64,000 nucleotides of DNA, from assembly GCF_032118995.1 (NCBI RefSeq), contig NC_092661.1, forward strand, positions 2,358,501 to 2,422,500. The letters run 5' to 3'. Shown piece after piece: positions 8,701-61,520 of this stretch. Positions within the stretch are counted from its first letter, which is position 1. Each line of letters begins with the position of its first letter. Both the position numbers and the translations under genes were made by a program. The notes under the pieces are model-generated. The model ran no database searches. It was not told where the DNA came from and saw only the letters and a list, made by a program, of their open reading frames with translations. The stretch is from Asterias amurensis. Its lineage: Eukaryota; Echinodermata; Asteroidea; Forcipulatida; Asteriidae.

Positions 8701-10552
8701 TATTATTATTATTTATTTGGCCAAGATTTCAACAAACAGTACAAGATACAATATTACCGTACTAAAGAAATATAACAGAATAAGAAACAATGAATGTAAA
8801 CTTATGACACCTAGAACAATTGTAAACCAATGATTGAATGAGACAGAGCACTGGCAATCAAGCAAGACAATTATAAAAACAGACAGGACAAGCCCATTCT
8901 AAGATGGCCAGGATTAATCAAAGTGAGCCTAACCACTGTGACTCGGAAGCCTATCAATCCAATCTTAAAATGGGAATAGAATCTTTAACAAACATTTAAA
9001 AACAGTAAAGATAAACTTTGGAAAATATAATAAATATTAAGAACAAAATAAATATGTATATGTTAGGAAAAACCTATTTATTTGTAGCAAGATTATTTGG
9101 AAGTGCACATTTGAGTTTAAAAAAGGCTGACCTTAAAACAATGAACAAATGAGGAAATAAAAATATAGAAATTAAGAAAAGGGCTAATCTTTATCAACAG
9201 ATAAATTAAAAACAATTTGGAAAAACTCTACAGGTTCTGGAAGTGCTGACACAGGTATCTTTTAAAACAATTGTATGAATTGAGGGTGAGGGAGTTGCAG
9301 ATATTTGTTGGCAGACCGCTCTAAACACGAGGGAAAGAATGAATTGAAGTGTTTTTTAGGCTGAGGGTTCTAGCATACAAATGGTTGAATACAAGTGTAT
9401 CGATGTGTCGGGTATTGACAGAGGTATTCAAGTTGATGATGGGACAATAAATTAAACCAAATAAACAACTAGTGGTGAATTGCACAATGAGTCTTTGTCG
9501 TCTGGATTCAAGCGTTTGCCAGTTTAGAGTTTTGAGTCTTGAAACAATTGAGTGTTGAAACAATTGAACAATTATAATTTTTGCATTTATTTAACTTTTT
9601 GACCAAAAAGTGTTGATGTTAAACACCAAGTAGACAACATTCTATAAACCTTGTGTCAATAAGCCATTTGCATGTCAGATTTGAATATTGTCTGGTACAA
9701 TGACGTGCTTGATCTCAAGTTACCACTTCAATTGGAATTCCTCAGTCTATCGACAGTTGCTATGTCACATGATGAGGGGCAAGCTTTTGCTTAGTTACAT
9801 AAGAGACGGTGAACACCCGAACACAATTATTCTGAATGGATGTGTATAGCACAATAGTACCAGGGTTTGCTCATCTGGAGGTTGCTATACAAAGGCTTGC
9901 CCTAAACCATTTTGCATAGTCTGGAGAATTCAAATGTAAGCGTTACATTGTGACTAAGCAAGTCATTGTACCAGACATTATTAAAATCTTGCTTATTTAC
10001 GGCGCCTTGAACACCCAGCAGGGTGGATATGTGCGCATTACAAGTCTTATTATTATTTATTATTTATTATTATTTAGCGTCCTTGCCTTTGGCGAAATTT
10101 CAAAAATTTGGGTCCTGAATGACCAATAGTTTTGAGAAAATCTTAGGGAGAAGAACCCTGGTATTGAATAATTTACTTTTCCGGAAACAAAGTGAAATAA
10201 TTTAATTCTTCAACTGTTCCTTTCAGTTACTGATAAACCAGCAACCCTGCCACCAACTACAGCAAAATTAACAACAGGGCCAACAACGGCAGGAAAGCAA
10301 ACCACCCCGATCTCCGACAAAACAACGCCACCCCCAACAACTCCCGCTGCTGGACCAACCGGAAAGGACGTAACCACCGGAAAGGACGTCGTAACAACTG
10401 CATCCCCCGCGACGAAAGAACCTTCCACTCAAAAGTTTGACACGGCCAGTTTTATTGGCGGGATCGTCTTAGGCATTGTAATCGTCGCTATACTCGGGTT
10501 TGCATACAGCTTCTACAAAACTCGACGGGACAAGAACTACCACACTCTTTAA
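2653..10552 (+). CDS. CD164: CD164/endolyn-like sialomucin, whole gene (4 coding exons)
   Basis: Joining 2653-2716, 6875-6946, 8333-8449 and 10227-10552 gives 579 nt, 192 residues plus stop. Every junction is GT-AG and every intron is phase 1. Residues 1-20 are a signal peptide (MMMYLRIFLVVLLAAYASSA). Residues 22-154 are a Thr/Pro/Ser/Ala-rich stalk with one N-glycosylation sequon, N24-G-T. A membrane helix lies at about 159-180, then a short basic tail ending in NYHTL. The run FDTASFIGGIV before the helix and the final NYHTL match the CD164 family, where YHTL is a Yxx-phi lysosome/endosome sorting signal. Expected role: a heavily O-glycosylated type I membrane protein cycling between the surface and endolysosomes. 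Oddity: the stalk has no cysteine, whereas vertebrate CD164 has a Cys-rich block between mucin segments. The tail makes the family call strong; the stalk itself is uninformative. Confidence 0.88.
3420..4080. repeat. Degraded MITE remnants in CD164 intron 1
   Basis: 3420-3740 resembles halves of families A and I. 3755-4080 resembles the inverted orientation of family A (TACTCAAAATAATTGTTAGCAT, GGAACAGCTCCCTCTGAAGT). Ends are eroded, so boundaries are approximate. Confidence 0.55.
4116..4903. mobile_element. GGGCCCAATTTCATGG palindromic MITE (family D), split by another element
   Basis: It starts GGGCCCAATTTCATGGCTCT and ends with the inverse. Other copies are at 33924-34166 and 40823-41072. 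Without the insert at 4343-4880 this copy would be about 250 bp, like the copy at 40823. Confidence 0.85.
4343..4880. mobile_element. TTAA-ended palindromic element (family E) nested in family D
   Basis: 538 bp from TTAAAGGGACACACCGG to CCGGTGTGTCCCTTTAA. It lies inside CTTACGGTA/AGCAGAG of family D, so it is the younger insertion. No open frame of note. Confidence 0.82.
5390..5840. repeat. Inverted-repeat element with GCGTACAAACCGTACGC ends
   Basis: CACGAGCGTACAAACCGTACG at about 5418 is matched inverted by GTGTACGGTTTGTATGCTCGTG at 5813-5834. Both ends have G-runs. The interior is A/T-rich and unpaired by eye. Confidence 0.5.
6572..6757. repeat. Perfectly palindromic short element in CD164 intron 1
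   Basis: AAGGCCCGGTCACACAGGCC followed by CCGATAACGAGAACAAAAAC is inverted at 6705-6757. Arms are about 55 bp with the centre unpaired. It ends 117 bp before exon 2. Confidence 0.82.
6875..6946 (+). CDS. CD164: CD164-like exon 2: mucin cassette
   Basis: 72 nt, phase 1 to phase 1, so it can be skipped without a frame change. The acceptor follows a T-rich tract ending TTGCAG; the donor is G|GTTAGT. Encodes VNNGTEPNEDLGVSPTVTN then PAVTT. The sequon NGT is the only N-glycosylation site seen in the stalk. GVSP is shared with exon 3, suggesting cassette duplication. Confidence 0.85.
6958..7296 (+). mobile_element. Family A MITE lacking its left terminal repeat
   Basis: The sequence is collinear with full copies (for example 19452-19838) from ACTAGTCTTCACAGTTGGTG to the right end CCAATAGTGTCCACTGCCTTTAA. 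It begins 11 nt after the CD164 exon 2 donor, so the left end is deleted or was lost at the splice site. Confidence 0.85.
8333..8449 (+). CDS. CD164: CD164-like exon 3: mucin cassette
   Basis: 117 nt, phase 1 to phase 1. It begins V-GVSPEPNKGSS, echoing GVSPTVTN in exon 2, and continues as an Ala/Thr/Val/Asp-rich O-glycosylation stretch. The acceptor is TCTATTTCAG and the donor G|GTAAGT, both strong. Confidence 0.85.
8690..9570 (-). mobile_element. 5'-truncated LINE (non-LTR retrotransposon) 3' end
   Basis: On the minus strand, 9563-9321 encodes LKTLNWQTLESRRQRLIVQF and on to HSFPRV, the pattern of the C-terminal tail of non-LTR reverse transcriptases (LNW--L--RR--L, then F-PR). A 3' UTR follows, ending in an (AAT)n tract at 8690-8714. 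Only this tail remains. It lies antisense in CD164 intron 3. Confidence 0.68.
10227..10552 (+). CDS. CD164: CD164-like exon 4: Thr/Pro stalk, membrane helix, YHTL tail
   Basis: 326 nt ending in TAA at 10550-10552. The first part is a dense Thr/Pro mucin segment. FDTASFIGGIVLGIVIVAIL starts the membrane region; YKTRRDKNYHTL is the cytosolic tail. The last four residues are the tyrosine-type sorting signal. The 3' UTR probably continues past 11 kb: AATAAA occurs at 11013 and again near 11781. Confidence 0.88.
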
Positions 10553-16111: not shown

Positions 16112-16356
16112 TCAGACTTCCCCATTTTTAACCATATTACGCCATTTATCCTTCAGATTGACGTTGGTCCGCCCGTTGAAATCGTACGCCATATTCATTT
16201 CAGACCACTTGCCGACACCAAACCTATCCACGGCTTTCTTTAACAGTTTGCATTCTTCATAAGACCAGAACTGCTTCTTCCTACTCAGCTGTCTGAAGGC
16301 ATGACTAGGGTCTAAACTATGCCGTACTTTCGGCGACTTTAGGGTTGGGAAGCTCG
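16112..16356 (-). CDS. TERF: TERF exon 10: Myb/telobox DNA-binding domain
   Basis: 245 nt to the TGA at 16114-16112. SRKKQFWSYEECKLLKKAVD opens the Myb repeat; RFGVGKWSEM is its middle and NGRTNVNLKDKWRNM the recognition helix with telobox. The protein stops seven residues after the telobox arginine, as in vertebrate TRF proteins that end close behind the Myb domain. A tRNA-derived SINE begins about 65 bp beyond the stop, so the 3' UTR probably contains it. Confidence 0.93.
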
Positions 16357-19300
16357 CTAAAAATAGAAAAAGAAGTCAAGTTGTTATACTGTGTATTATA
16401 CCCTGCTTGAGCCCAAAAATGGTGACTTAAGTTCACCCATTGCACAATGCTGCACAGATGTTCAGGCCAAATCAGCCTGTGATCTACCCAATGGTACACG
16501 TACATGTAGATGGATACAACTTACTGGTGGTTATTCCGGAGCTAGACCCAGAAGACATAAGATCATCTGATGAGTCTGCTGCTCTCTCTGGCGGTGATGT
16601 GTTATCCCGGACCCTGTTTCTGTTTGGTTGGTACTGCCGGTCCCTGATTGATCTTCCCCTATGGAAACAGAAAAACGCAGAAAATTGAACGTCAAGATTT
16701 TACACCGGGCCCAATTTAAAACAGCTACTTAACCACAGACACATTGGACGACATCCTTATCTGGAATGTTATTTTGGACAAATTCGGTTTGGATTTTTTT
16801 TCCTTCATCCAAAGCACTTGTCCTAAATAGTTTGCCGACATCCTGAGGGCTGATGTTTTTATTCACCTGGACTTACCATTGTGTAGCTTAGTGAGGCTGG
16901 CACCTATCGTGACACGCTTCATTTCACCTACAGTGTATACAAAGATACGTATGTGATATCAAGTCATAACCTACTCCCAGTTTCATACTGCACTTTGCGT
17001 ATTGTATGTGTCAATGCGTCACACTCCGCCAACGGTCAGTGCAAAAATGACTTTGGGCAAGCAGGCTCTTCATCACGAAATAACCCCCTGAAATGTCAAA
17101 CTCACTTTGACTTATATGAGGCTGGAAGATGAATTTGGTATCGCACGCGTGCTTGTGGAGTAAGAGGGAAAAATATAGCGTGTCTGCCTCCCAGCTCCTT
17201 CGTATTCCACTGGCGCTTGAGTGAAAACTTACATTATTATTACCTCTTTGGAGTAGACACTGTCGGACTCTGGAGTCCAAGATCGTTGGGGGATTGAGGG
17301 TCTACTGCAGCTATCGGCGAATGGCTTTGATCCAGAGAGGGTGCATCGATCGGCGTCTGGCTCTGATCCACAGAGAGTGCATCGATCGGCGTCTGGCTCT
17401 GATCCAGAGAGGGTGCATCGATCGGCATCTGGCTCTGATCCAGAGAGGGTGCAGCGATCGGCGACTGGCTCTGATCCAGAGAGGGTGCAGAACACGCGTT
17501 GTTTGCATCTCTCGAATTTGCTTTCTGTCTCTTCGGTGGAGAGTCATCTTGCTGTTAGAAAAAGAAAAAAAAAGAGAGACTTTGTTGAGAAAGGGTTGAT
17601 CAATAAATAATAAGACAGAGGCAAGTTGGATTTGAAAATTTTGCACTGAAGAATTTTGATTAGTAAGATAGATAGACTCAAGTTTGGACTTACAAACGGA
17701 TTAGACGTTCCTCTGATGTCCGCCCAGTCTTCGTCTGTCAGTGAAGGCACGGCAGCTTCCAACACTGCCAAGGTGTAGACGCTTATAGGTATTGCAAATA
17801 AAAGAATCTTAGAGAACTCAACAAAACAGAAGTCTATTGTTTTGTATTAATTGTTTATTTATTTTATTATTTTATTTTAATTCTTCGGACAATACAATAA
17901 TTATTATAACAAGCAGAGGCCGTCCAGGGAAAAGCAAAATTAAAAAAAAACTGTCATAAAAAAAAAGCAGGCATGCATTGCATGCAATGGCGCCTTTGAC
18001 AGCCAGCCACATCAACCTAATATGACCACAGAGCACAGCCAGAGATCGAAAGTGTTTGATATTTCCCAAAGGAAGGAAAACCCTATGGTCTGGAAACCCT
18101 TGTGGCAAAGCAGAGAACCAACACACAACTCAACTCACATAGCCCTGGCAGGGTACAAACAAGGGTCACCTTGGTGAGAGGCGAGCGCTTTACGCACAAG
18201 CCAACCATGCCACCCTATAATTAGCTTACATTGTACTAGACAATGTTCAAATCTACATGTAACACGCAATTGACTTATTAAAGGCAGTGTACACTTTTGG
18301 TAATTGTCAAAGACTAGCCTTCACAGTTGGTGTATCTCAACATATGCATACATAACAAACCTGTGAAAATTTGACCTCAATCGGTCATCGAAGTTGCGAG
18401 ATAGTAATGAAAGAAAAAACACCCTTGTCACACGAAGTTGTGTGTGTTTAGATGGTTGATTTCGAGACCTCAAGTTCTAAATCTGAAGTCTCGAAATCAA
18501 ATTCGTTAAAAATTACTTCTTTCTCGAAAACTATGGCACTTCAGAGGGAGCCGTTTCTCACAATGTTTTATACCATCAACCTCTCCCCATTACTTGTCAC
18601 CAAGAAAGGTTTTATGCTAATAATTATTTTGAGTAATTACCAATAGTGTCCACTGCCTTTAAATGAACTTTTGCTGAAGATGGGCGGGAAAACCTAAAAT
18701 ATAGTCTTCTTTACGTACCTCTTTTCACGGTCATTACTGTCTCCCTTTGTCCCTCTACACTTTCTCTTGCGTGGTGAAATAAACCTCAGTCCCTTCGGAT
18801 TGCCACAGTTGTCATCAGTCTCGGAAGTAATCGACCCATTCTCGTTCGATGCCTCATCCGACATCGGATGATCACCTCTGTCCAACCTGCTGCGTGACAT
18901 CTTCCGGAGACCTAAAAATAAAAAATAATATTCTGTTTTATAGTTTCATAAAAGCCTGCAAGCACAAAAACTTAATAACACAAAAAAGTATTACTATAGC
19001 AAGCGCTGGCCAAAATGACATTGAGTAACATGGTTGTGACTGTTGTCCTACTCAATTTTTTCTTCAATTTTTTCTTATCTGCTGCTTAAAGGCTTAAAGG
19101 CAGTGGACACTATTGGTGATTACTCAAAATGATTATGAGCATAAAAGCTTACTTGGTAACGAGTAATGGAGAGCTGTTGATAGTATGAAGTATAGTGAGA
19201 AACGGCTCCCTCTGAAGTGACATAGTTTTCGAGAATAATTTTCCGCGAATTTGATTTCGAGACCTCGGGTTTAGAATTTGAGGTCTCGAAATCAAGCATC

Positions 19301-30076: not shown

Positions 30077-30240
30077 TTAGTCCCAGTCCTCGTCATCATC
30101 ATCATCTTCGCTGCCGTCCGAGTCGGTGTCGCTCAGCTCCACGGCGATGCGGCGTGCCAAGATCGCCTCCACGGAATTCGTCGCCGGTGTCTGGTACTTG
30201 TCCTTCTCCTCCTGTATCTCAGTTTTACGGAGATTGATAC
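30077..30240 (-). CDS. WASF: WASF exon 5: WH2 end, central and acidic motifs
   Basis: 164 nt ending in TAA (30079-30077). [20 protein letters not shown] completes WH2, [20 protein letters not shown] is the central region and [12 protein letters not shown] the acidic motif. The penultimate Trp is the conserved Arp2/3 contact. The 3' UTR is probably short, with a LINE tail starting 115 bp downstream. Confidence 0.95.
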
Positions 30241-33200
30241 CTGCAAGGGGTCAAGTTGAAATACTGTTTAATAAAAAATAATAACAGTAGCTTCTAAAAT
30301 AGCGTATATCCGTCACTCAGTGACGCTCAGGGCACTTTAACGAACAGTATTTTTTCTGCAAGGTATGTGAGACTACGTTTGAGTTATGAGACTAACTCCT
30401 TTAACATAGCACCATGTAAATAATAGTAAACATTATAAAAACAATTAAATAGTGCCAAATCAATGCTCAATGGTGCTTACAGAGTTATATTAAAACAAAA
30501 ATCCCCTAAAAACACAAAGTCGTTATCAAAATTAACAACAAGGTATCAAAATAAGTTTAAAAATAACAAGCAATTACAGAAATGTACAATATACAATATC
30601 AATACAATATGCAATAAAAAATACACAATATACACTAGAGAGATATGCAATGTTTTAAAATGAAAAGGTTTAATGTAACATTTTACAAGGTGCTGTGGCG
30701 CAATATGCTGCCAATCAAACCAGGAAAACCAGGGCGAACCCCCTTCTCTTTTTGATAAGGCACTGGGTTCTTTAACGTGCGTTACACAACACACTGAACC
30801 AACAGCTTGCGACATCCCACGCTCGAAAAGCATCCACACTTGGGTTGAAAAGTGCCCTCACTTAGGTGAAGGGAGGCAAATGATTGGAGGATGATAATAA
30901 CAATAAAGAAAACTTATATCACACAATATCCACCTAATAAGGTACTCAAAGCGCATGAAAAGAAGAAAACAAAAAACAAGAGAAAGAAAGGGAAACAAAA
31001 GAAAGAAACAAACTACTGAAAATCTGTTTGAAACAAATGAAATTTCAATTAAAGGAATGGTCCAGCATGCGCAAAAGGCCTGCCCCCCTAGTTAGGATAG
31101 CTGTTCTTTATGGGTAAAAAGCACCCGTGAGCTCAGCGTCCCTATAGCGTTGAGCGTTATGCAAGGGGTTTACTAAGAAGAAAGAAGGGCTGGGACAACA
31201 TCTTACCTTGCTGTATGGCCGTCAGGAGGTTATTTCTTTCGTTATTAACTTGTGGAGCCTTTGGTCGCATTGATGCTCGATTCGGAGACGCCAAGCTGCC
31301 AGGACTAGATGACTCTGGTATATCCCCACCATGTGGAGGAGAAGGTGCGGGGGCAGGCATCGGGGGTGGAGGGGGTATGGATTTGCCGTCCGTTACCCCG
31401 ACGGGAGGGGGTGGTGGTGGGGGCGGGGGCGGGGGAATGTTTGCGTTTGTAGTGGGTGCAGCGGGAGGGGCGGGCGGGGGCGGCACATGATTGACGTCGT
31501 TGTTCATGATGGGCGTGTCCCCGAGATGACTGGGGGGCAAAATGGTCTGGTTGACGGGGATATGTTGGGGTCTGTTGTGGTCCTTCGCAGGCGGCGCCTG
31601 GTGGTTGAATGCCTGGGGGGGTACGGCTGGTGCAGGTCGCTTCGGAGTGCTGGCCGAACCGTTTGACATCGGCGGCTGCTCATGGTCAGGTGTTGGGAGG
31701 TTCGACGGGGGCGGGGGCGGTCGATTTGTGGGGCGGTGCGATGCTCGATGACCGCTGTCATATGAGCCCCCTTCGTCGAATCCTTCCGATGAGGATCTTG
31801 ACATACTCTCTTTCGTGGCAAGAGGTTGATGGTACGGCTGTTGAACCGGTGCCTGCTGCGGCTGCTGATACTCATTAATGTTTTGGTTTGAACCCTTCGT
31901 TTCCGAGGTGGGCGTCGGCGTGGGCGTGGCCTCCTCCATGAACTCTTGACCCTGTGCCATGGCCTGCCATTTCTGTTTTGACGTTTTGATGCGACTTGGC
32001 TTGTCCTGTTGTTTTGACTTTGCGTGTCGCTTCTAAAATAACAACATTGGCAAAAAAATTAGAATGTTAAGTTTGAGAAAAATACATATCATAAGGATTG
32101 GTAGGTAGCTTTCTTCATTTCTTTCATTTTATGTCTCCAGGCACATAAGTCCTGAAGGCCACATTAAGGTTTGGGCTACAATCAACAATTTGTCCAGGGG
32201 CCGTTGCTACCTACTCCTGGGGCTTGAACAGAGTTACCCCCTTTACAATCCATACGGATGTAGGCTTGAGCATCATCCATCAGAAGGCTGAATAATAAAA
32301 ATTCATAAATACCTTGGACGGTTTCAAGTCTCTGATTGGTCAAAACCCGGTCACATGTGGGAGTGTTTACAGTGGTATAAAGACCGGCTTAGGAAAATAG
32401 CGAATAAGTGGCCACTAAATCAGCATACATTGTGTAAACCTTGCGCGTTGCTGTATCGCATGCTTGTTTATATCCATGTTAGTTTCATTGCAACTTCGCG
32501 CACGCGCGCTGAAAATGTATCCATTTTGAGTGCGAGCGTGTAACAGGTGCACGCGTATAAACTGACGCTGAGCTCATGCGCACGTTTTAATGCACAAAGA
32601 ACAGCTATCGTCCAATCATTTGCCTCCTTTGACCCCAGTGAAGGCGCTGAACAGATCATTATTTAAAAGAGTCACTGGTCTCAAAGATCAGTAATGTGAT
32701 TAACGCACGAAAGAGATGGGAACCATCAAAAGCTCAAAGATGGCCCCTGAATATGTCTGGAAGTACCGTCAAGAGAAAAGTCACAAAATTTGGACAATTT
32801 TAGCCGTTTAATTCGCTAAAAAAGGTATTTATTAATGGGAATAACAGTGTTCGTACCCGGTCTTCACTGCGTGGTAATGACCTTGGTTGGTGGCTGGCGC
32901 TGTTAACAGACATCGCCTCCGGCTCGGTCCGTTAACAGCGCCAGCCACCAACCCGGTCATTACCACGCAGTGAAGACCGGGTACTCGCACTGTTATTTCC
33001 TAACTAAAACATTCATTTAGTGCACAGGCGCTTTACATCAAATTGACATTAACCAATAAAAGTTTTTAAGTGCATGAGTTAAAAATACAGAATCAGCAAA
33101 ACAAAAGATACTCAACATTTTAACATCATTCTTTTAAGACAGAAGATGTTCAATTGAAAACAAAAACAAGACCACCGGACTTAAAGTCCTGTCTTGAGTT

Positions 33201-36200
33201 TACTGGCCGGCACTAAAATCACTAGCCTCTGACCAGGGCCAAATTTCATAGAGCTGCTAAGCACAAAAATTTGCTTAGCATGAATTTTTTGCCTTGATAA
33301 AAACAGGACTACCAATCAGATTTCTTCGTGATTTTCAGGATAAGCAAACAACAGCTGAATCCAACTACCAAGCAATATCCAACCAATGGAAATTTGGTTG
33401 GTAATCCTGTTTTTATCAAGGAAGAGATTTCATGTAAAGCAAATTTTTGTGCTTGAAATCAAGCCTAGTAGTCCATTGTAAATTTTGATCCCTGATTGGC
33501 CCACTGTGGACCATTTTTAATAGCTGGAACAACTTCAAAGCACACACCCCCCCCCTGATTGGCCAACAGTGGACCAATTACTATAGCCGGAACAACTTCA
33601 GGCCCCCCCCCCTACCCTTAGGACTTGCCCAAGGCTCACACCTTTACCTTTTTCCTGTTCTTCTTTTCTCTGATATCCGTGATATTCTTCTGCATCTCTT
33701 CGCACCAAAGCTGGAAGAAGTACTTCGGGTCAGTGTAGAACTTTAAGGCTTCCTTACCGTCTTCCCTGAAAGGACAAAACATCAGAACGGTTTCAGACGT
33801 TTGAGATCGCCTTGGGATAAGTTATTATTTGAATCCAATCTACATGTAAAGGCATTGTCACACAATGCAACTTCGGGGCAACCAGTCGGACAATTTCTCC
33901 AAAAGGTGCAAGAGCACTCACCTCGGCCCAATCTCACGGCGCTGCTCACCGCCGTAATCTGCACTTATGATCACCATTCTCAACTTACATGTACATGCAA
34001 GCGCCGAATGTCTGCGCTACAATGCCTAGTTATGTGGAGTACGCAAGCGCAGAAGCCAAAATTCCCTGCTGACCCGTGAAATAAGCTTGACGTAAGCACG
34101 GAATTCACCTCATTTTGTAAGCCCCGATTCTTTGCTTACGATAAGCATAGCCATGAAATTGGGCCCTGGTCATATATAAACAATCTTCCCGTCAAGGCAA
34201 CTCGGCAAACTCCCACAGGGGGAAATAAAGACCAAGCTTGCAACAGCCAATCTCTAAACTTGTGTACTTCAGGTTTACATTTTTTTTGTACATCTCAAAA
34301 CGAAAAAGGAGAACATTTTCATATTCAGGGGGATTATCATCAGAGCCTAGAAGAGGGGGCACCCGATTTGATTCAAACCTGGGCTTTAAATCTCAATCAG
34401 ACTTCATTCTTAAATGGGAAATATTCTCATCTAGGCATTCTCATCTGGGCAATATCCCTGTTGGCCATGCAAGTCTCGTGGCCTCTTCAAAAAGCTTGGT
34501 TTTAAATCCAAAAACTTTGCTCATGGCTTTGGCTCCCCAACTAACAAAAAATCCAAATCTGTGCTTTTTTCCCCAATTTGAGTTTACATCCGCACTTGGG
34601 CACTATCCCAATCTGGGTGCTAAGTTCCCAGTTGGGCATTACTTTACCTATACTGGCTCAAGACATTGAGATCAGGTGGCGGGTCGCATCTGAGGTAGGT
34701 CTCCCTCATGCCAGCTTGCATGGTGTGAACGTCAAACGTAACCACGTCTGGAATGGTGCTAGCCCGAAACTGCTGTACGTCCAACAGCTGCGTCAACTCA
34801 ACTAAACAATTTGAGGATTTGTTTGGGTTTGGATTTAATTTTCATTAATTGGGTGGGAGTCTGGGATTGCCCTGGGAGGGTAAGGATTAGGAGTCGGAAA
34901 TCGAAACTCGGCCATCCATAGTGCTTCTCGATTACTACATTATTGTAGTTGAACTTAAAGGTTGGACGCACCTTTATTAGAAGTGTTGAAAAATGCTCGG
35001 CAAATGTTGTGTGCAGCTTTTATTCATATTTCCCTTAAATAAAAAAACAGCTCTAAACTTTTTCCTGAGATTCTAATTGATCGTAATTAAGAAGCGCTTT
35101 ATAAGAAGCAAATATTATGATTATACTATTATTCAAAAAAGTCCTCTTTTGATATTTAATGATCTTTTTATTTTTGCTTCTAAATTACAGGTAATTGTCG
35201 TTTGACTTGACGGAATTTTTTTTATAGTTAAACAGCCATTAAAGGATGATCTAAAATATATAGATACTACAGTTTTCTTATAGCTGGAGTCCATAGGAAA
35301 CATGACAAAAATATAGCGAGTCTCTTACCTCACGTTAAAACATGGTAAAAATGTTTTTTCTACAGAACGCTTCTAGCAAAATTTCTGAAAAACGCGGGGT
35401 CAAAAATACCTGCGCGACAAAGGAATCGTGACGTCAGTGGCGGCTATTTGGTGTGGAAAATAGCGCCCTCAGTTTGCCAAAGCTGGAGAACTGTGTTCAC
35501 ACCCAATTAGGGGAATATCGTCACTGGCGTCAAGAGGTCATTATAATAGACATGATAGATAAGCCGTTTTTGACTCTCGGCTGAAAAAGCTGCGCGGCCG
35601 CCGGCCGGGTGCATTTTTTACTCGAGTTATTCGTTACTAAATGCAAATTTTGAGAGTAAAATGGTTATTAACCGGTATCTACGATGTCTATTTAGCCATA
35701 AAAAGTTAATAGTTGAAATATTGAGATCATCCTCTATTGGCTCTTTAACAACAATTTTTGGAATACCATTTTATTTATCTTGATGGCAATTGTTTCTTTG
35801 TATGTGACCTGCCAAGTGGCTAAGCGAGGAATAACATTGCATTCAAGCTCTGTTTTTACTTTAGAAAGGGGCTGTTTCTCACAATGTTTTTATACTGTCA
35901 ACAGATCTCCATTGCTTGTTTACATGTTAGTTCTCATGCTGACAATTATTTTGAGTTATTTTCCAGTCCCTTTACAAACAAGCCTCCCCTCAGCGAAGTC
36001 AAGAGCTTCCAGAATCACTTGATCTTTAATGATCTATGCATCACACTCATTGACAAGTGTCAAAGAAAAAAACGAATATTGGTTTTCATGACAACGTTTA
36101 AAATGCAAATTATGGTTTTCCCAAAACAGCTGCAGTGCATAACCTCAATAATTATCTCAAGAAAATGAAGGGAGACCGGTCTTCAGGGAACCTGGGAAGG

Positions 36201-39200
36201 GGAGAGAGGTCTCCGCGACACCTCAACGATGGTGAGTCATCGTTACGGACAATCGAGTCAGCGGATCAAGCCAGCGCTGTCCAAGGTGATTTGCGTCCGG
36301 CTTAATATCAAAAGGAGATCCGTTTCTGGATGACGAAGCAATTTCAGGATGGCGTTTAGATTTATCGCTTGTTTTCACATCGATAAGTTTTTGATGCCTT
36401 TTGTCATCATACAATCATGAAAGTATATTTTTTTCTGTTGGAACACTACATTTTACGTAGTTAACTTGTTATGCTGTGAGGGGCACTGGACACATCATGC
36501 TAAAAGTGACCTGGGCCCAATTTCATAGCACTGCTAAGCACACAAATTTGCTTAGCATGAAATTTCTTCCTTGATAAAAACAGGATTACCAACCATATTT
36601 CCATTTGTTGCATATTGCTTGTTACTTGTATTCAACTGTTGTTTGTTTATCCTCAAGACCACGTGGAAATTTGGTTGGTAATTCTGTTTTTAACCAAGGC
36701 CAAAATGTCATGCTAAGCAAATTTTTGTGCTTAGCAGCGCTATGAAATTGGCCCGACCATTGCAGCTGGTTATTTGTGTGTTTCAATCGAACCCATGTGA
36801 GGATGCAGGGGTCGATATCACAGAACTCTTCCTAACTTGGGACTAGTCAGAGGCAATGCTAAGAGATAGGACAACTCTTAGATTAAGACCAGTTACTGGT
36901 CCTAACTTCAGAAAAGACTAGTCTTATCTCTTTGTGAAATCGAACCCAGAACAGCTGTGTTCGATTGTGGTATATGTGTGTTACTTAAATGAGAATAAAT
37001 TTATGAATATTTTCAATCTCAGGAAAAAGCAGAGTTGCACATTTCACAAAATTCTTATTTTTTTGTAATTAATCATTTTCACAGTGTTTATTTAAAATAA
37101 AATAAATTGAAGTAGTGAATTATCAAGCACTTTGTATGGGTAAGACTCATCTCCAAATCCTAAACCGATCCTCCTACCCAATTGAGAATGTTAAAGATCC
37201 TCTGTGCCCATTTGGGAATATAGACAGGGGGTGGTTTATTTTGTTACTGGGTTTTACCTGTAAGGGGTTAGGAGGTTGAGCTTGGGCGGTTTGTCACAGC
37301 GCATGTAGGTTTCCCGCATTGCAGAGGGCATTGTGTAATTGGCCACCACCTCTTGGTCCAATAGTGTGGAGCTTTTGAAGGCTTTACGCATCTGGATGTC
37401 TTGCAATGAGACTGCGGGATGGTTTGCAAGGGTGTGCAGAGAAGAGAGGAGAGCAGCAGGAAGTGATGCAAAAATGGAGAAGTGAGTAAGAAAGATGCAG
37501 AAGTAGTAAGAAAGTAGTTAGAAAGATAGAGTAGTAAGAAAGTATTAATAAAGATGAAGAAATAGTAAGAAAGAAGCAGAAGTAAGAAAGATGGAGAAGT
37601 AGTAACAATGATTTAGAAGTAATAAGAAAGCAGAAGAAGGATGCAAAAGTAAGAAAGATGCAGAAAGAGTAAGAACGATGGAGTAGTAAGAAAGTAGAAG
37701 AAGTAAGAAAGATGAGAAAGTTGGAGAAGTTAGAAAGATGAAGAAGTAGTAAGAAAGATGATGAATTAAGAAAGATGGAGAAGTAGGAAGAAAGATGGTG
37801 AAGTAGTAAGAAAGATGCATGGAGAAAGATGGAGATGGTACGAAGGGCAAGTAGGGATTATGAGGAGCGATGGTAAGATTTGAAAGCAAGGGCAAAATGG
37901 GAAAAGCATGACGGGAGAAAAAGATGCAATTGTTGTATTATAGAAAGCCGTTTTACCAAGCACCAATGCTACCAGAGATGATTAAAATACAATGTAAACA
38001 CAATAACGTATTAAATGTCAGTGTAACTAATAAACTACATGACCCCTACAAAATATAATGTTACGTTAGCATTCCCACTAGCTTAGTAAACTAAATGTCA
38101 GTGAACTTTTCCTTTGCTCGGTCAACAATTTTTATGGAAAGCCGTCTCTGTTCCAGGACAGAAAACTACAAATTTGTGCAAACATTGAACCCATCTTAAG
38201 TTAGGACAAGTAACTCATCTTAACTCAAGATAGGATTAATCCTAGCGTTTTGTGAGATCCACCCCTGGTCATTGCCTTGGTGCCCTTCCCCCAGTAGAAA
38301 GTTAAAATTTCCTCATACATGGAGGTTGGCCTTTTACCAAGGAGAAAACGCCTTTGTGTCCTTGCTTGACAAAGCACAGGCCTACAGAGGTAAATTTTGC
38401 ATTGGGAAAGTTCACCAAAGTCTAGTAGGATAGGAAAATTTGAAAGGTCATCAAAGGTCATGACCTGGGCAGGTAAAGAGGTCATGGCCTCCCCATGTGG
38501 CCTAGCCTCTGTGTCATTCCAGACCTGACTATGCATAAATATTTACAACTCAAATTATGGACTTTTGAAGCAATTGAAAATGGAATTCACAAATTTGCAC
38601 TGCACCTGCTAATGCATTTTAGAAATAGATTTTTAAAGCATTTGCTTTTAAAATATTCACAAGCTGAGAAGAAAAATAGGATACTGATTTAAGAACGGAC
38701 AGAGAGCCTGAAAATGGCGGATTTGCAAGTACTACTGATGGTTAGTCATAGGAATATTCTACATGTATATTGACAGTCCACAGAGAGTGGATTGTCGGGC
38801 ACGGTCGGACAGAATATATGCATATTAATATTCATAAAGCAGTGAATGCAGCGAGATGGATTGTTCCCATTCACTTGTGATCCTTTAATCACAGTCTACT
38901 ATGAGTAACAGAAATGCCAGATGCTTCTGAAAAGGACTGTGGTACTTTTTGTACGGCACAAAACACATTGTTCACAGATTTACATTAAACTCACACAGAA
39001 TGAAGATAATGATGGTAGAAAGCTTCCCCTAATATATTACTTGCTTGGGACAGACAAGTCACAAACATATTTTTTTTCAGAAATTATTTTAGCATGTATT
39101 TTCGGGAAATTGTTTTACTCAATTCTCAAAAACTACAGCACCTCAGCAACTAATATTTAAAGGTAAACTTTCTTCGTGTATTATTTTCTTCAAACGGTAT

Positions 39201-42200: not shown

Positions 42201-44819
42201 TATCGTCGGCAAAAAGAGTCTGGTTCCTAACTTCACGCGCCTAGGTACCAGGCCACACAATGCACACGTCTCTATATGCACACAGCCAGGGGACCCGACG
42301 CTCGGGTTCCCGACATGACGTCACATGAAGGCTCCCTTTTAGTGGCGGGGTGGGTTCCCCTAATCTCTTGAAAACCACTTTTAAAATACTTGCGCATTAA
42401 ATAAAAAATTTAAAAAAATATTTCAGGTTTGAAAAGTCATGTTTAATCGTTTAAAATTTTAAAAAACCCACTGCAGCCACCCTTTAAACTCATGGTTCAA
42501 CCCGATCGAGTTCAACTCTGTGTGTCTGAACGGTTCTAAAGTTAGTCCGAATCGAGTTCAACCCACAAAAGATAAACCGTCCAGGGAGGGGGTTTATCTT
42601 TAGACCGCTTCAGGTTTATCTTTTAACACTGTGTGTGGATAGAATAAAAAAGACCACATCCAGTTTAACTCACAACAGACGACCCATTGACCTCCGTTAT
42701 CATTATGTAAAGACACGGTGACCAATGAACAGGCCAATAACCAGGATGTTAGAGTAACGGGGTCGCGTTTGCTATGACCTATTAAAACCAAAGATAAACC
42801 GTATCGGGTTTAACTCAGTGCTGTCTGAACGCAAGGGTTTTTTATTTTTACGACCACCCCCTGCTGCTCGTAGAAGTTAAACCGGTTAGGGTCTAATTTA
42901 GTACGCTGTCTGAACATACCCTATGTGAAATCCACCCCTGGACACGTTTGGTAACTGTCAAGGACCAATAATCTTTCTAGGTGTATCACAATATCCCCTG
43001 TACATATAATGCGTGAGACTTGCACTGTCTACAATAAACAGGCCATGAACTTCGCTCTTGAAGGGGCACAGCAATTTCCCTCTGGCAATGGGCACTTCTA
43101 CCTTGTACAGGGCAAGACAGCCAAAAGCACAGGGCACAAGGGCAATTGCTGTGGGTGTCGTGGGCATTTTCAATGTCACAAGACAGATCATGATCTGTCT
43201 GTGGATGAAACCCCCCTCAGTGTTGAGTAAACGTGTACTTCTTGTGGTTGTACAAGGTGTCTAAGACTAATTGGGGTCAATCAACTTTTGTCACCATCTA
43301 AGATGTCTGCATAGGGAGGGAGTCCACAGTCAGTACATCTAGATTGATTGTGAGATAAGGTCAAGCTGTGATGGCTGCGGGAGTAGCATCTAAGATGTCT
43401 GCATAAGGAGGGAGTCCTCAGTACATCTAGATTGATTGTAAGATACGGTCAAGCTGTGAGCTTTTGTCACCATCTAAGATGTCTATGTAAACATGGCATT
43501 TTTAAGCAGGAAGTCTACACAGTCAGTACATCATGGAGTAAGTTCGAGTGTGCACAATGGTTTCCATTTGCACTCAAACCCTTTGGAACCAGCCTTGAGC
43601 CCATGGTTTCTTCACTGGTTCCAACAGCATGTTCCATTCTAACATGTGTAAAGCGCAGAGGGGAACCAGTGACACTACAGCGAAAAGGCAGAAGGTTGAC
43701 TAGACTTCCAAATGAGTCGTTCGAGTGAGTGCGTCACTGCGAATGTACACTGCTGGTCAGTAGTCAACCACGGGTCGACTATTTGTGCCCACTTGAACTT
43801 GCTATAGAATGATTGTGAGATTTGGTCAAGCTGTGACGATGACCTATCCTGGCCTGGATAAACAAAGTTCTACATTATATTCACAATGTAGCTTCAAGTT
43901 TAAAGGCAGTGGACACTATTGGTAATTATTCAAAATAATTTTCATCATAAAACCTTTCTTGATGCGAATAATGGGGTTAGGTTGATAGTATAAAACATTG
44001 TGAGAAACAGTTCCCTCTGAAGTGATGCAGTTTTCGAGAAAGAAGTAATTTTCCACGAATTTGATTTCGAGACCTCAAGTTTAGAATTTGAGGTCTCGAA
44101 ATCAAGCATCAGAAAGCACACAACTTCGTGTGACAAGGGTATTTTTTCTTTCATATCTCGCAACTTCAACCGACTGAGCTCAAATTTCACAGGTTTGTTA
44201 TTTTATGCATGTTGAGATACACCAACTGTGAAGACTAGTCTTTGACAGTTACCAGTAGTGTCCACTGTCTTTAAGGAACTTTAGTTCCAAATGAGCGTGT
44301 ACATTTACATTGCACACATGTAGTACAATGTAGCTTCAAGGAACTTGAGTTCCCAATGCTTTGGACAAACCATGTCCGTCGTCAAAATCCACCTCCTCCT
44401 CCCCCCCCCCCACTTCCAAAAAAAAAAAATAATCATAGAAAAACAAGCATTTATAACGAGAAAAACAAATGCATAAAAAAGACAGGACTAGAAAGACAGA
44501 AGCAGGCAGAAACCAGGGGCAGCTGCAGCGGCGTGAAATAATTCCTCTTACCATCGTCTCTCGTCGCGTCCAGTTGCTTGACCTTGACCGACAGTCTATC
44601 AATCCGATCCTGGAGTGAGTTTGACCTCCGACACAACGAGTTGGCCTCGTTGTAGAGGTCGCCGAAGATGTCCTCGGCATGCTTGCTCAGGTTACTCAGC
44701 TGCCGGATGATACCGGAGAGTGTGGTGTTGGTGACGCACTCTAGCTCGTTGGAGATGCCCTGTGAGATCACCCCTCGGCTCAAGTTGACCGGCTCAATTT
44801 CTCGTTTGACCAATGGCAT
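30077..44819 (-). CDS. WASF: WASF (WAVE/SCAR) actin-nucleation-promoting factor, whole gene
   Basis: Coding exons 44819-44552, then either 37411-37258 or 34801-34648, then 33765-33648, 32032-31207 and 30240-30077 sum to 1530 nt: 509 residues plus stop. The start [10 protein letters not shown] and [21 protein letters not shown] are the WAVE homology domain, which holds the protein in the five-subunit WAVE regulatory complex downstream of Rac. A basic region follows (about 170-200, ending KWQAMAQG), then a polyproline region (about 250-430) for profilin/SH3 binding. The tail is WH2 ([17 protein letters not shown]), central helix ([16 protein letters not shown]) and an acid stretch ending [10 protein letters not shown] with the Arp2/3-binding tryptophan. 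Tyr125 and Tyr151 fall at the same residue numbers as in human WAVE1. It activates Arp2/3 at lamellipodia. Family identity is certain; the gene likely predates vertebrate WASF1-3. Confidence 0.96.
30670..30960. mobile_element. SINE/LINE body fragment in WASF intron 4
   Basis: Shares ACAAGGTGCTGTGGCGCAAT, CGAACCCCCTTCTCTTTTTG and CGTGCGTTACACAACACACT with 20385-20640 and other copies. Confidence 0.6.
31207..32032 (-). CDS. WASF: WASF exon 4: basic region and polyproline
   Basis: 826 nt, phase 0 in and phase 1 out. [20 protein letters not shown] completes the basic region and [12 protein letters not shown] matches the conserved block after it. A Gln/Pro-rich and then polyproline region follows, with one uninterrupted run of 11 prolines. 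It ends [13 protein letters not shown], the first half of the WH2 actin-binding helix. Confidence 0.94.
32840..32997. repeat. 158-bp near-perfect palindrome in WASF intron 3
   Basis: Arms of about 68 bp (AATAACAGTGTTCGTACCCG onward) pair with only a few mismatches around a 23-nt GC-rich centre. Confidence 0.9.
33236..33470. mobile_element. Palindromic MITE, family F (TTTCATAG--GCTGCTAAGC)
   Basis: GGGCCAAATTTCATAGAGCT with inner CCTTGATAAAAACAGGACTA and its inverse TAATCCTGTTTTTATCAAGG. A second copy is at 36513-36754. The right end is partly lost. Confidence 0.78.
33489..33612. repeat. About 70-bp tandem pair with C-runs
   Basis: CCCTGATTGGCC and TGGAACAACTTCA recur about 70 bp apart, each followed by a C homopolymer. 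It lies just downstream of WASF exon 3 in transcript order. Confidence 0.75.
33648..33765 (-). CDS. WASF: WASF exon 3
   Basis: 118 nt, phase 2 in and phase 0 out. [20 protein letters not shown] is the conserved segment with Tyr151 (KFYT), then a Lys/Arg-rich end REKKNRKK that starts the basic region. Acceptor CCTTTCAG, donor AAG|GTAAAG. Confidence 0.95.
33924..34166. mobile_element. Family D MITE in the WASF exon 2b-3 intron
   Basis: Diverged GGCCCAATCTCACGGCGCTG to AGCCATGAAATTGGGCCC. Inner CAATGCCTAGTTATGTGGAG is shared with 4116-4903. Confidence 0.8.
34648..34801 (-). CDS. WASF: WASF exon 2b (alternative copy of the duplicated exon)
   Basis: 154 nt, same phases as exon 2a. Reads [20 protein letters not shown] and later [20 protein letters not shown]. 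It aligns with exon 2a over all 51 residues without a gap and keeps F, ST, D, TM, MRETY, RCD, PP and LN. Splice sites are intact (TTGTTTAG acceptor, ATAG|GTAAAG donor) and the frame has no stop, so it is not decayed. Expected to replace exon 2a in some transcripts. Confidence 0.87.
35239..35748. mobile_element. TTAA-bounded element in the WASF exon 2a-2b intron
   Basis: TTAAAGGATGATCTAAAAT on the left; GAGATCATCCTCTATTGGCTC then TTTAA on the right. The terminal repeats match around AGGATGATCT with a small offset. Confidence 0.6.
36223..36414 (-). pseudogene. Possible retroelement gag-like relic
   Basis: The minus-strand frame includes [26 protein letters not shown] pattern occurs near the start of gag-like proteins of some metazoan retroelements, but the expected W-RF-Y continuation is missing. 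The GC content is higher than its flanks. Low certainty. Confidence 0.25.
36513..36754. mobile_element. Family F palindromic MITE in the WASF exon 2a-2b intron
   Basis: GGGCCCAATTTCATAGCACT to AGCGCTATGAAATTGGCCC, with inverted inner block CCTTGATAAAAACAGGATTA. Confidence 0.88.
36805..36955. mobile_element. Palindromic MITE, family H (CTAGTC / GACTAG core)
   Basis: GGGTCGATATCACAGAACTC to TCTTTGTGAAATCGAACCC, with inner GGACTAGTC and GACTAGTC. A second copy is at 41829-41975 and a fragment at 38190-38265. Confidence 0.75.
37258..37411 (-). CDS. WASF: WASF exon 2a (canonical copy of a duplicated exon)
   Basis: 154 nt, phase 1 in and phase 2 out. Reads [20 protein letters not shown] and later [20 protein letters not shown]. 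This is the copy closer to vertebrate WASF (SLQD-T-MRKAF-SST, LNILTPYR). Tyr125 is in MRETYM. Acceptor ATCCCGCAG, donor ACAG|GTAAAA. Confidence 0.93.
37440..37830 (-). repeat. 390-nt purine/pyrimidine tract upstream of WASF exon 2a
   Basis: Imperfect tandem of about 18-20 bp, plus-strand consensus near AGTAAGAAAGATGGAGAAGT. In WASF transcript sense it is CUUUCUUACUACUUCUCCAU-like, rich in UCUU, ending about 30 nt before the exon 2a acceptor. Confidence 0.9.
38386..39263. other. WASF intron 1, no recognised element
   Basis: Mixed AT-rich sequence; the short frames have no domain pattern. Confidence 0.4.
39264..39640 (+). mobile_element. Family B MITE
   Basis: TTAAAGCCATTGGACCCTTT to GTATAATGGCTTATAATT (right TTAA mutated). 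Inner TCATGACATGTGTTTAAAAT is shared with 15049-15440. Confidence 0.85.
40051..40435 (-). mobile_element. Family B MITE, inverted
   Basis: TTAAAGCCATTGGACCCTTT to GAAAGTGTCCAATGGCTTCAA. Inner AAACACATGTCATGACATGG is the inverse of the other copies. Confidence 0.85.
40823..41072. mobile_element. Family D MITE, best preserved copy
   Basis: GGGCCCAATTTCATGGCTCT to AGAGCCATGAAATTGGGCCC with long pairing of CGTAAGCACAGAATCGG and its inverse. Confidence 0.9.
41829..41975. mobile_element. Family H palindromic MITE
   Basis: GGGGTCGATTTCACAAAGAG, then AGGACTAGTCCTA and AGACTAGTCCTACATGT. Same plan as 36805-36955. Confidence 0.7.
41998..42487. mobile_element. TTAA-bounded element (AGGGATGCTGCAGTG ends)
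   Basis: TTAAAGGGATGCTGCAGTGA on the left; CACTGCAGCCACCCTTTAA on the right. The middle is GC-richer and not obviously palindromic. Confidence 0.75.
43270..43540. repeat. About 95-bp tandem repeat (CATCTAAGATGTCTGCATA)
   Basis: CATCTAAGATGTCTGCATA-GGAGGGAGTCC and ACATCTAGATTGATTG recur two to three times; a remnant (GTCAAGCTGTGACG) is at 43825-43839. Confidence 0.8.
43900..44274 (-). mobile_element. Family A MITE, inverted
   Basis: TTAAAGGCAGTGGACACTATT to CCAGTAGTGTCCACTGTCTTTAA, with an intact central hairpin. It lies about 280 bp downstream of WASF coding exon 1 in transcript sense. Confidence 0.9.
44552..44819 (-). CDS. WASF: WASF coding exon 1: WAVE homology domain
   Basis: Encodes residues 1-89 plus one base. 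The ATG context is ACCATGC. An acceptor (CATCAATGCAG at 44839) lies 19 nt upstream of the ATG, so a further 5' exon must exist. Contains [17 protein letters not shown] and [17 protein letters not shown], the coiled helices that pack in the WAVE complex. Donor GATG|GTAAGA, phase 1. Confidence 0.95.
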
Positions 44820-45195
44820 GGTGACTGGTTTCAGACTTCTGCATTGATGAAAAAAAGGGAGAATTTAACAAATTTACTACAAATAACAGCACTGGGATTG
44901 TACAGTGCTTTAAAATGCACACCCCTAGGAGTGCATCAACTGCACTATGATTTCTTTCCTGCAAGGTATTTGGCAGTTCTAAATTTTTTGAGGTATGAGA
45001 TCTTTGACAAGGGGCTATGGAGCAATTTTCTTGCGATCAGACAAGGAACACCGGGCAAACCTCTTCTTTTAAGTGCACTGTTTTTTTTTTATGTGCATTT
45101 AATACACAACACACTGGACAAATGGCTTTGCATCCCATCCAAGAGAGGCAGCAATAATAGAAAAGTGTCTTGCTCAAGGTCACGTGTCAAGACCA

Positions 45196-48200: not shown

Positions 48201-48800
48201 TATAATAGATGTTAAATTTGCATCGGGAATAAAGAATATTAATTTTGGTTTTTACCCATACACCGATGTGTGTTAGCACTGTATACTCAGTACTTTCCCG
48301 AGTCCTGTGAAAACATATCACAGGCATGTTACTCGGGTGGGATTCGAACCCACGACCCTTGCAATTCTAGAGCAGTGTCTTACCAACTAGACTACCGAGG
48401 TTGCCCGGCAGCTAGAGGCAGTTCGAATCCTATGTTTTTGGCAGCGGGTACCGCAAAGATATAATAGATGTTAAATTTGCATCGGGGATAAAGAATATTA
48501 ATTTTGGTTTTTACCCATACACCGATGTGTGTTAGCACTGTATACTCAGTACTTTCCCCGAGTCCTGTGAAAACATATCACAGGCATGTTACTCGGGTGG
48601 GATTCGAACCCACGACCCTTGCAATTCTAGAGCAGTGTCTTACCAACTAGACTACCGAGGTTGCCCAGCAGCTAGAGGCAGTTCGAATCCTATGTTTTTG
48701 GCAGCGGGTACCGCAACGATATAATAGATGTTAAATTTGCATCGGGGATAAAGAATATTAATTTTGGTTTTTACCCATACACCGAAATGTGTTAGCACTT
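48201..48800 (-). repeat. Tandem array of a tRNA-derived SINE, 259-260 bp period
   Basis: ACCGATGTGTGTTAGCAC falls at 48262, 48521 and (one variant) 48781. Minus-strand sense of each unit gives A box GTAGTCTAGTTGGTAAGAC and B box GGGTTCGAATCCCACC, then GTTAACAT-type 3' sequence. The two full units are nearly identical. Confidence 0.93.
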
Positions 48801-61286: not shown

Positions 61287-61520
61287 CGAGTGTGCTCCCG
61301 TGGTGTTTTCCTCAGACAGGCGAACTGATCCGCACTGCTTTGTCTCATGATGGTTGCCATGGTTATCTGTTTGTTCACTCCCCAAAACCGTGTTTCTCCT
61401 CCAATGTTGAACCAGATATATATAGTATTTCCTTGTTCAATCGCTCCGAACTCCTCAAGACGACTACAAACGGTCTTCCTCACAGCACCAGCGCTCGCAT
61501 GAGAAGATTTGCGCCGTCAC
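61287..61520 (-). promoter_or_regulatory. WASF: Candidate distal first exon and promoter of WASF
   Basis: On the minus strand a region with two GGAAG (ETS-type) sites at about 61548 and 61600 is followed by a short upstream ORF (ATG at 61500, six codons and TGA). An ATG in the strong context AACCATGGC at 61360 follows, then a consensus donor CTCG|GTAAGT (exon end 61287). Spliced to the acceptor at 44838, the 61360 ATG reads MATIMRQSSADQFACLRKTP and on to REHTRSLKPVT, directly into the WASF start codon in frame. No other coding exon for this strand was found between 44.8 and 61.3 kb. It could be a first exon of WASF or of an unrecognised gene. Confidence 0.45.

Follow-up and report, generated by a model that had tools for sequence, protein, structure and literature searches.

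Two diverged tandem copies of a WASF exon, probably used one at a time, in the starfish Asterias amurensis

This study analyzed a 64,000-nucleotide stretch of the Asterias amurensis genome (assembly GCF_032118995.1, contig NC_092661.1, positions 2,358,501 to 2,422,500; hereafter the window, whose numbering is used throughout), with a focus on two similar exons of its gene for WASF (WAVE), a protein that turns on the assembly of actin. The gene lies on the minus strand, as do all of its exons, and extends from approximately 61.4 kb to 30.1 kb. Mapping the N-terminus of the database protein P0001 placed the coding part of the 5' exon (24 codons plus two bases) at 61287..61360, with the donor GTAAGTTA, and the resulting spliced model equals P0001. 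The constant exon E2 (44552..44838) contains the usual WASF start codon at 44819 and covers the WAVE homology domain from residue 1 to residue 89, as determined from the sequence, the splice sites, and an alignment to human WAVE1. Next come the two exons under study, each supplying residues 90-141 of WAVE, where the first half of the segment called the meander lies: exon A (37258..37411) is the conserved copy, recognized by its AG/GT sites and its Acanthaster planci match, and exon B (34648..34801) is the diverged alternative copy, recognized from RefSeq isoform X2 (P0001), an open reading frame in an ENA genomic entry (P0121), its GC content at third codon positions (GC3), and its homology to A. 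In the gene model, the constant exon E4 (33648..33765) carries L148, Tyr151, and the 'stem' (residue roles from PMC9481577), E5 (31207..32032) encodes the basic and proline-rich region and the start of WH2, and E6 (30077..30240) encodes the remaining WH2, the central and acidic region, and the stop codon. The introns around the pair measure 7140 (E2-A), 2456 (A-B), and 882 nt (B-E4), and the splice sites inspected across the WASF exons were GT-AG.

The model spliced through B was identical over 540/540 residues to the RefSeq entry 'actin-binding protein WASF3-like isoform X2 [Asterias amurensis]' (P0001), which carries B and not A (alignment scores, 271 for B and 116 for A). The B isoform is thus already in the database, and this entry, a predicted isoform, strongly suggests that some transcripts contain B and lack A. 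P0001 begins at an upstream ATG (61287-61360 joined to 44820-44838), so that a 31-residue extension precedes the customary MPLVK start. A similar extension was noted by eye in Acanthaster planci isoform X1 (P0002), and it may be a shared starfish feature. Both isoforms aligned to human WAVE1 residues 1-179 (PDB 3p8c, 7usc, and 4n78), with E values of 1.2e-66 for A and 4.3e-58 for B. A Pfam scan of the starfish WASF returned WH2 only and no WAVE-homology model, and the database entry of P0001 gives PF27560. The WH2 match (E 0.00084, 19.4 bits) was under the Pfam cut-off of 23.1, and the C-terminal columns with invariant residues aligned to other WASFs. Two tRNA-Ser(AGA) genes lie on the minus strand (48328-48401 and 48588-48661), within the long intron that separates the 5' exon from E2; their Rfam scores are equal and their starts are 260 bases apart.

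Exons A and B are each 154 nt long, enter in phase 1 and leave in phase 2, and have intact AG/GT sites and open frames. Including one of them (E2+A+E4+E5+E6 or E2+B+E4+E5+E6) yielded an uninterrupted 509-residue WASF from the usual start, whereas including both led to a stop directly after A and including neither led to a stop 7 codons past E2. Since the exon length of 154 nt is not divisible by three, transcripts with both exons or neither are presumably removed by nonsense-mediated decay. The copies aligned without a gap, with 23/52 residues identical when split codons were included. Their ungapped BLOSUM62 score was 114, compared with a mean of -41.7 (standard deviation 14.5, maximum 30) in 100,000 shuffles of B. 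Identity by codon position was 24/51 at first, 32/52 at second, and 18/51 at third positions, and the low third-position value speaks against a very recent copy. In tblastn searches of the window, A and B each retrieved the other at E 1.3e-11, the next match being at E 0.39; further copies of the A/B exon and duplicates of E2, E4, the E5 start, and E6 were not found by tblastn within the window. The pair shows several features of homologous mutually exclusive exons, namely tandem homologous exons, matching phases, equal length, and a frame broken by joint inclusion or skipping. A sequence-only reading of this DNA had claimed the same exon coordinates, 154-nt lengths, phases, splice sites, and open frames, all of which agreed with our recomputation, together with a gapless alignment of about 22 identical residues in 51 and a full protein from only one exon at a time, both of which were borne out. 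We consider it probable that A and B arose by tandem duplication of a single WASF exon, have since diverged, and are used one at a time.

We analyzed whether B resembles a functional coding exon. Its GC3 is 34/51 (67%), compared with 0.58-0.75 in the other WASF exons and a GC content of 0.392 in the two adjoining introns (binomial p 6.6e-5). In a neutral-decay simulation run to the observed second-position identity (32/52), which mutates B only and serves as a rough guide, a stop-free frame remained in 18.8% of 4000 runs, and the probability of an indel-free B was 0.016, 2.6e-4, and 4e-6 at assumed indel:substitution ratios of 0.05, 0.10, and 0.15, respectively. The GC3, the lack of a stop, and the lack of an indel make B look selected, in line with the earlier view that it has intact splice sites and no stop and is apparently under selection. 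A second source of the exon is P0121, a 108-residue reading of a 1513-base ENA contig, in which B is identical at 52/52 residues; the entry is genomic and so uninformative on splicing. Compared with the window, the intron reading before B in P0121 has 2 changed residues and one indel. We considered P0121 as a test of purifying selection and set it aside, since the comparison is at the protein level only and approximately 2 expected changes against 0 seen are too few.

Several observations weigh against a living, alternatively used exon B. The relatives examined were the 120 WASF matches listed of 1519, mostly vertebrate, of which the tree took 20. In the resulting 23-row tree of the 52-residue segment, the B branch was 3.6 changes per column long, and 21/52 of the B residues were unseen in their column among the 119 other listed proteins. 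The simulation left approximately 32 identities at first and at third positions, against the 24 and 18 observed, a poor fit there. By eye, the acceptor of B is pyrimidine-poor. The transcript-level basis for B is one predicted RefSeq isoform. No A-containing Asterias protein was among the listed relatives, where isoforms could share a 90% cluster, and the joining of A to its flanking exons was taken solely from homology and Acanthaster planci isoform X1. Exon B was not found in another named species in searches of clustered proteins, in which 90%-identity clusters may hide isoforms differing at about 30 residues. The long branch, the unseen residues, and the lack of a second named species would fit a relic, that is, a former alternative exon that is now unimportant and entered RefSeq through computation or noise splicing. 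We regard this explanation as improbable, because against it stand the GC3, the open and indel-free frame, the intact AG and GT, and the clustered conservation at MRETY.RCD.PP.LN.L..YR, as does the retention of B in a separate sequence source whose intron reading has changed, although the latter is too little for a test. For the claim that the organism could make two WAVE proteins, the frame-exclusive exons and the identity of RefSeq X2 with the B model are favorable, and usage rests on a predicted isoform.

The comparison with relatives revealed that A is identical at 52/52 residues to Acanthaster planci isoform X1 and that human WAVE1 is closer to A than to B in this exon (30/52 vs 21/52). 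The segment was A-type in 119/119 of the other proteins among the matches listed. Searches with the exon-B region at two query lengths, covering 5.77 billion clustered proteins, recovered B in 1 of 4 candidates (P0001) and in 1 of 1 (P0121). Approximately unbiased tests rejected neither a grouping of B with starfish A (p 0.216) nor one of B with echinoderms (p 0.218), and dating of the duplication from the tree was abandoned, B being too diverged to place. At 9 of the 29 positions where A and B differ, the B residue occurs in at least 1 of 20 other rows (Acanthaster omitted), which we judged too little to argue for a deep ancestry of B.

We considered how inclusion of the two exons might be controlled. 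The intron between A and B is 2456 nt, compared with a criterion of approximately 50-60 nt for steric exclusion, and the sites have GT-AG termini; because of this intron length and these sites, no steric or U2/U12-type spliceosome block enforces exclusion, which is a further point against strict mutual exclusivity. It is consistent with a simpler account in which B is spliced in but mutual exclusion is unregulated: each exon is selected independently of the other, nonsense-mediated decay eliminates the resulting transcripts with both or neither, and exclusion exists at the protein level only. The length of 154 nt, not a multiple of three, and the early stop in both aberrant products fit this account as well, and a human survey reports exons of such lengths in 377 (60%) of mutually exclusive clusters (PMC5740500). 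We take the account seriously, at somewhat less than even odds. What speaks against it is a distinctive CU-rich tract that lies before A only and may mean active regulation.

This tract is a degenerate array (approximately 20 nt x 17, 66% matches; TRF) on the sense strand just upstream of A (37470..37817, minus strand). The 489 nt before A, a span picked after the tract was noticed, contain 34 TCTT, whereas 2084 sampled windows average 2.8; the 5 of these windows with at least 25 TCTT all overlap the tract. Polypyrimidine-tract-binding proteins act on CU-rich sequences in other genes. The array may be a splice-regulatory element for the A/B choice; it may also be without meaning, simple-sequence arrays being common in repeat-rich genomes. 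Control by RNA pairing of the docking/selector kind was considered as well. A search of 33600-38000 identified one complementary pair around B (34144-34172 with 36507-36535; 29 nt, 86%), and this candidate was rejected as a mechanism and kept as a lead only, since the 29-nt arm abuts a foldback repeat and looks repeat-derived. The foldback element itself (36514-36754), in the A-B intron, has 67-nt arms that are 87% complementary and a related arm after B (34144-34172), and it is mobile-repeat-like.

We further investigated what the exchanged segment encodes. In the alignment to human WAVE1, residues 90-141 comprise alpha2-alpha3 and the start of the polyproline stretch, which together form the first half of the autoinhibitory meander. 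The segment had been described as a regulatory loop that includes the regulating tyrosine; Tyr125 is indeed present in both copies, but the segment is the start of the meander rather than a loop, and the lock residue Tyr151 lies in constant exon E4. According to PMC9481577, the WAVE half of the Tyr151 lock consists of P131/P132/P133/L134 and L148, and Rac at its A site frees the meander after Q130. Phosphorylation of Tyr125 destabilizes the meander, as stated in a review (PMC8464821). B retains Tyr125, P131, P132, and L134, and L148 is, like Tyr151, in E4; at position 133, human WAVE1 has a proline, A a lysine, and B an aspartate. The earlier observation that MRETY (Tyr125), RCD, PP, and LN are kept in B was reproduced, with conservation clustering at these motifs. 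Identity between A and B was graded along the segment, from 3/14 (residues 90-103) through 5/15 (104-118) to 15/23 (119-141), and the net charge was +3 in A and -3 in B. Of the 23 columns dominated by a single residue (at least 97%) among the 119 other listed proteins, B keeps 12; these proteins are mostly vertebrate, which biases the columns toward vertebrates. The tree's 22 A-type rows share 12 invariant columns; B keeps 7 of them and has lost Q93, D94, I95 (to leucine), K99, and P118; the first four are each invariant in the 119 proteins.

On the basis of these findings, we propose the following mechanism. One exon would be picked per transcript, wrong choices would be lost as nonsense transcripts, and the choice would be tipped by a splice regulator whose target may be the CU-rich tract before A. 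The A and B isoforms would both assemble into the WAVE complex, and the Rac sites, Tyr125, and the P131/P132/L134-Tyr151 lock would be common to both complexes. B would swap the alpha2 surface (residues 90-103, the meander start) that holds the sequestered actin-binding (V/W) helix. Because this surface, which holds the V/W helix, is replaced, we infer that autoinhibition of the B complex is altered, probably weakened, and that its Rac threshold is different. The opposite outcome is also conceivable, in that the B isoform might be a less active or dominant-negative WAVE instead of one that is easier to activate: the shift in net charge favors such a change, and the new alpha2 of B could grip the sequestered helix more tightly or upset assembly. 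We consider this outcome unlikely, since the loss of Q93, D94, I95, and K99 near the V-helix contact would more simply mean a weaker contact.

A 2012 study that covered over 400 eukaryotes, with genes reconstructed by hand, reports no alternative exons in the WASP family, WAVE included, except 11A/11B of Aplysia californica WASP (PMC3298513). That pair, like the one in the starfish, is mutually exclusive, belongs to a WASP-family gene, and affects an autoinhibition-mediating element, and its authors proposed modulated autoinhibition, which they labelled speculation; it differs in that the gene is WASP and not WAVE, the segment is part of the second WH2 and the C domain and not the meander, and the animal is a mollusc. 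The starfish pair resembles the Aplysia pair in kind of element and is not its homologue. Among vertebrate proteins, WASF3 isoforms X1 and X2 (P0020/P0021 and P0048/P0049) interchange two diverged alignable segments from residue 181, beside the meander. The segments are 56 and 59 residues long and share 20 and 21 identical positions in two alignments, 5 of which are the common SHASD that follows. The two versions, of EQKRIDG and REKHK type, were recognized by one motif in 35 and the other in 34 of 121 proteins compared, and the bird protein P0069 bears both, so that exclusion is not strict in annotation. The swap looks like a second exon pair in the WASF family; as in the starfish, diverged versions of a segment substitute for each other in a family member, but it is known from protein sequences only and concerns the next segment downstream and not residues 90-141. 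The sequence-only reading had taken such an exon pair to be unknown from vertebrate WASF genes, which holds for residues 90-141 in view of the uniformly A-type relatives listed and does not hold for the downstream segment. WASF3 exon skipping has been described in glioma stem cells, with the exon left unspecified (PMC6965107). Human homologous mutually exclusive exons are likewise frame-matched and of similar length, and in many of them joint inclusion shifts the frame, according to two surveys (PMC5740500, PMC9741552), from whose main texts the term 'WASF' is absent. No report on this exon pair was found in the openly licensed literature searched. Homologous mutually exclusive exon pairs are thus a known kind, and at the position of the A/B pair an effect on autoinhibition is plausible.

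Elsewhere in the window, the open frame 10196-10552 (plus strand) matched the Pfam family MGC-24 (sialomucin; E 1.2e-13, residues 30-118) and is likely the last exon of a membrane mucin gene, which we take to be CD164-like. The open frame 16112-16375 (minus strand) contains a Myb-like DNA-binding domain (Pfam E 1.7e-07, residues 37-81) and resembles, by eye, the end of a telomere-repeat-binding factor.

Overall, a single starfish gene may give rise to two WAVE regulatory complexes through exchange of the alpha2-to-polyproline half of the meander. We offer only tentatively the view that this is a switch evolved at the level of splicing to set the threshold at which branched-actin assembly is activated, possibly older than the starfish-family split and tied to cell type, for example coelomocytes, larval mesenchyme, or regenerating tissue. 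If this is true, the Rac site and the tyrosine lock would be unchanged between the two complexes and the clamp on the actin-binding helix would differ. WAVE autoinhibition is known from human structures and point mutants, and a natural swap that changes alpha2 but spares the Tyr151 lock would provide a ready-made experiment on the contribution of alpha2.

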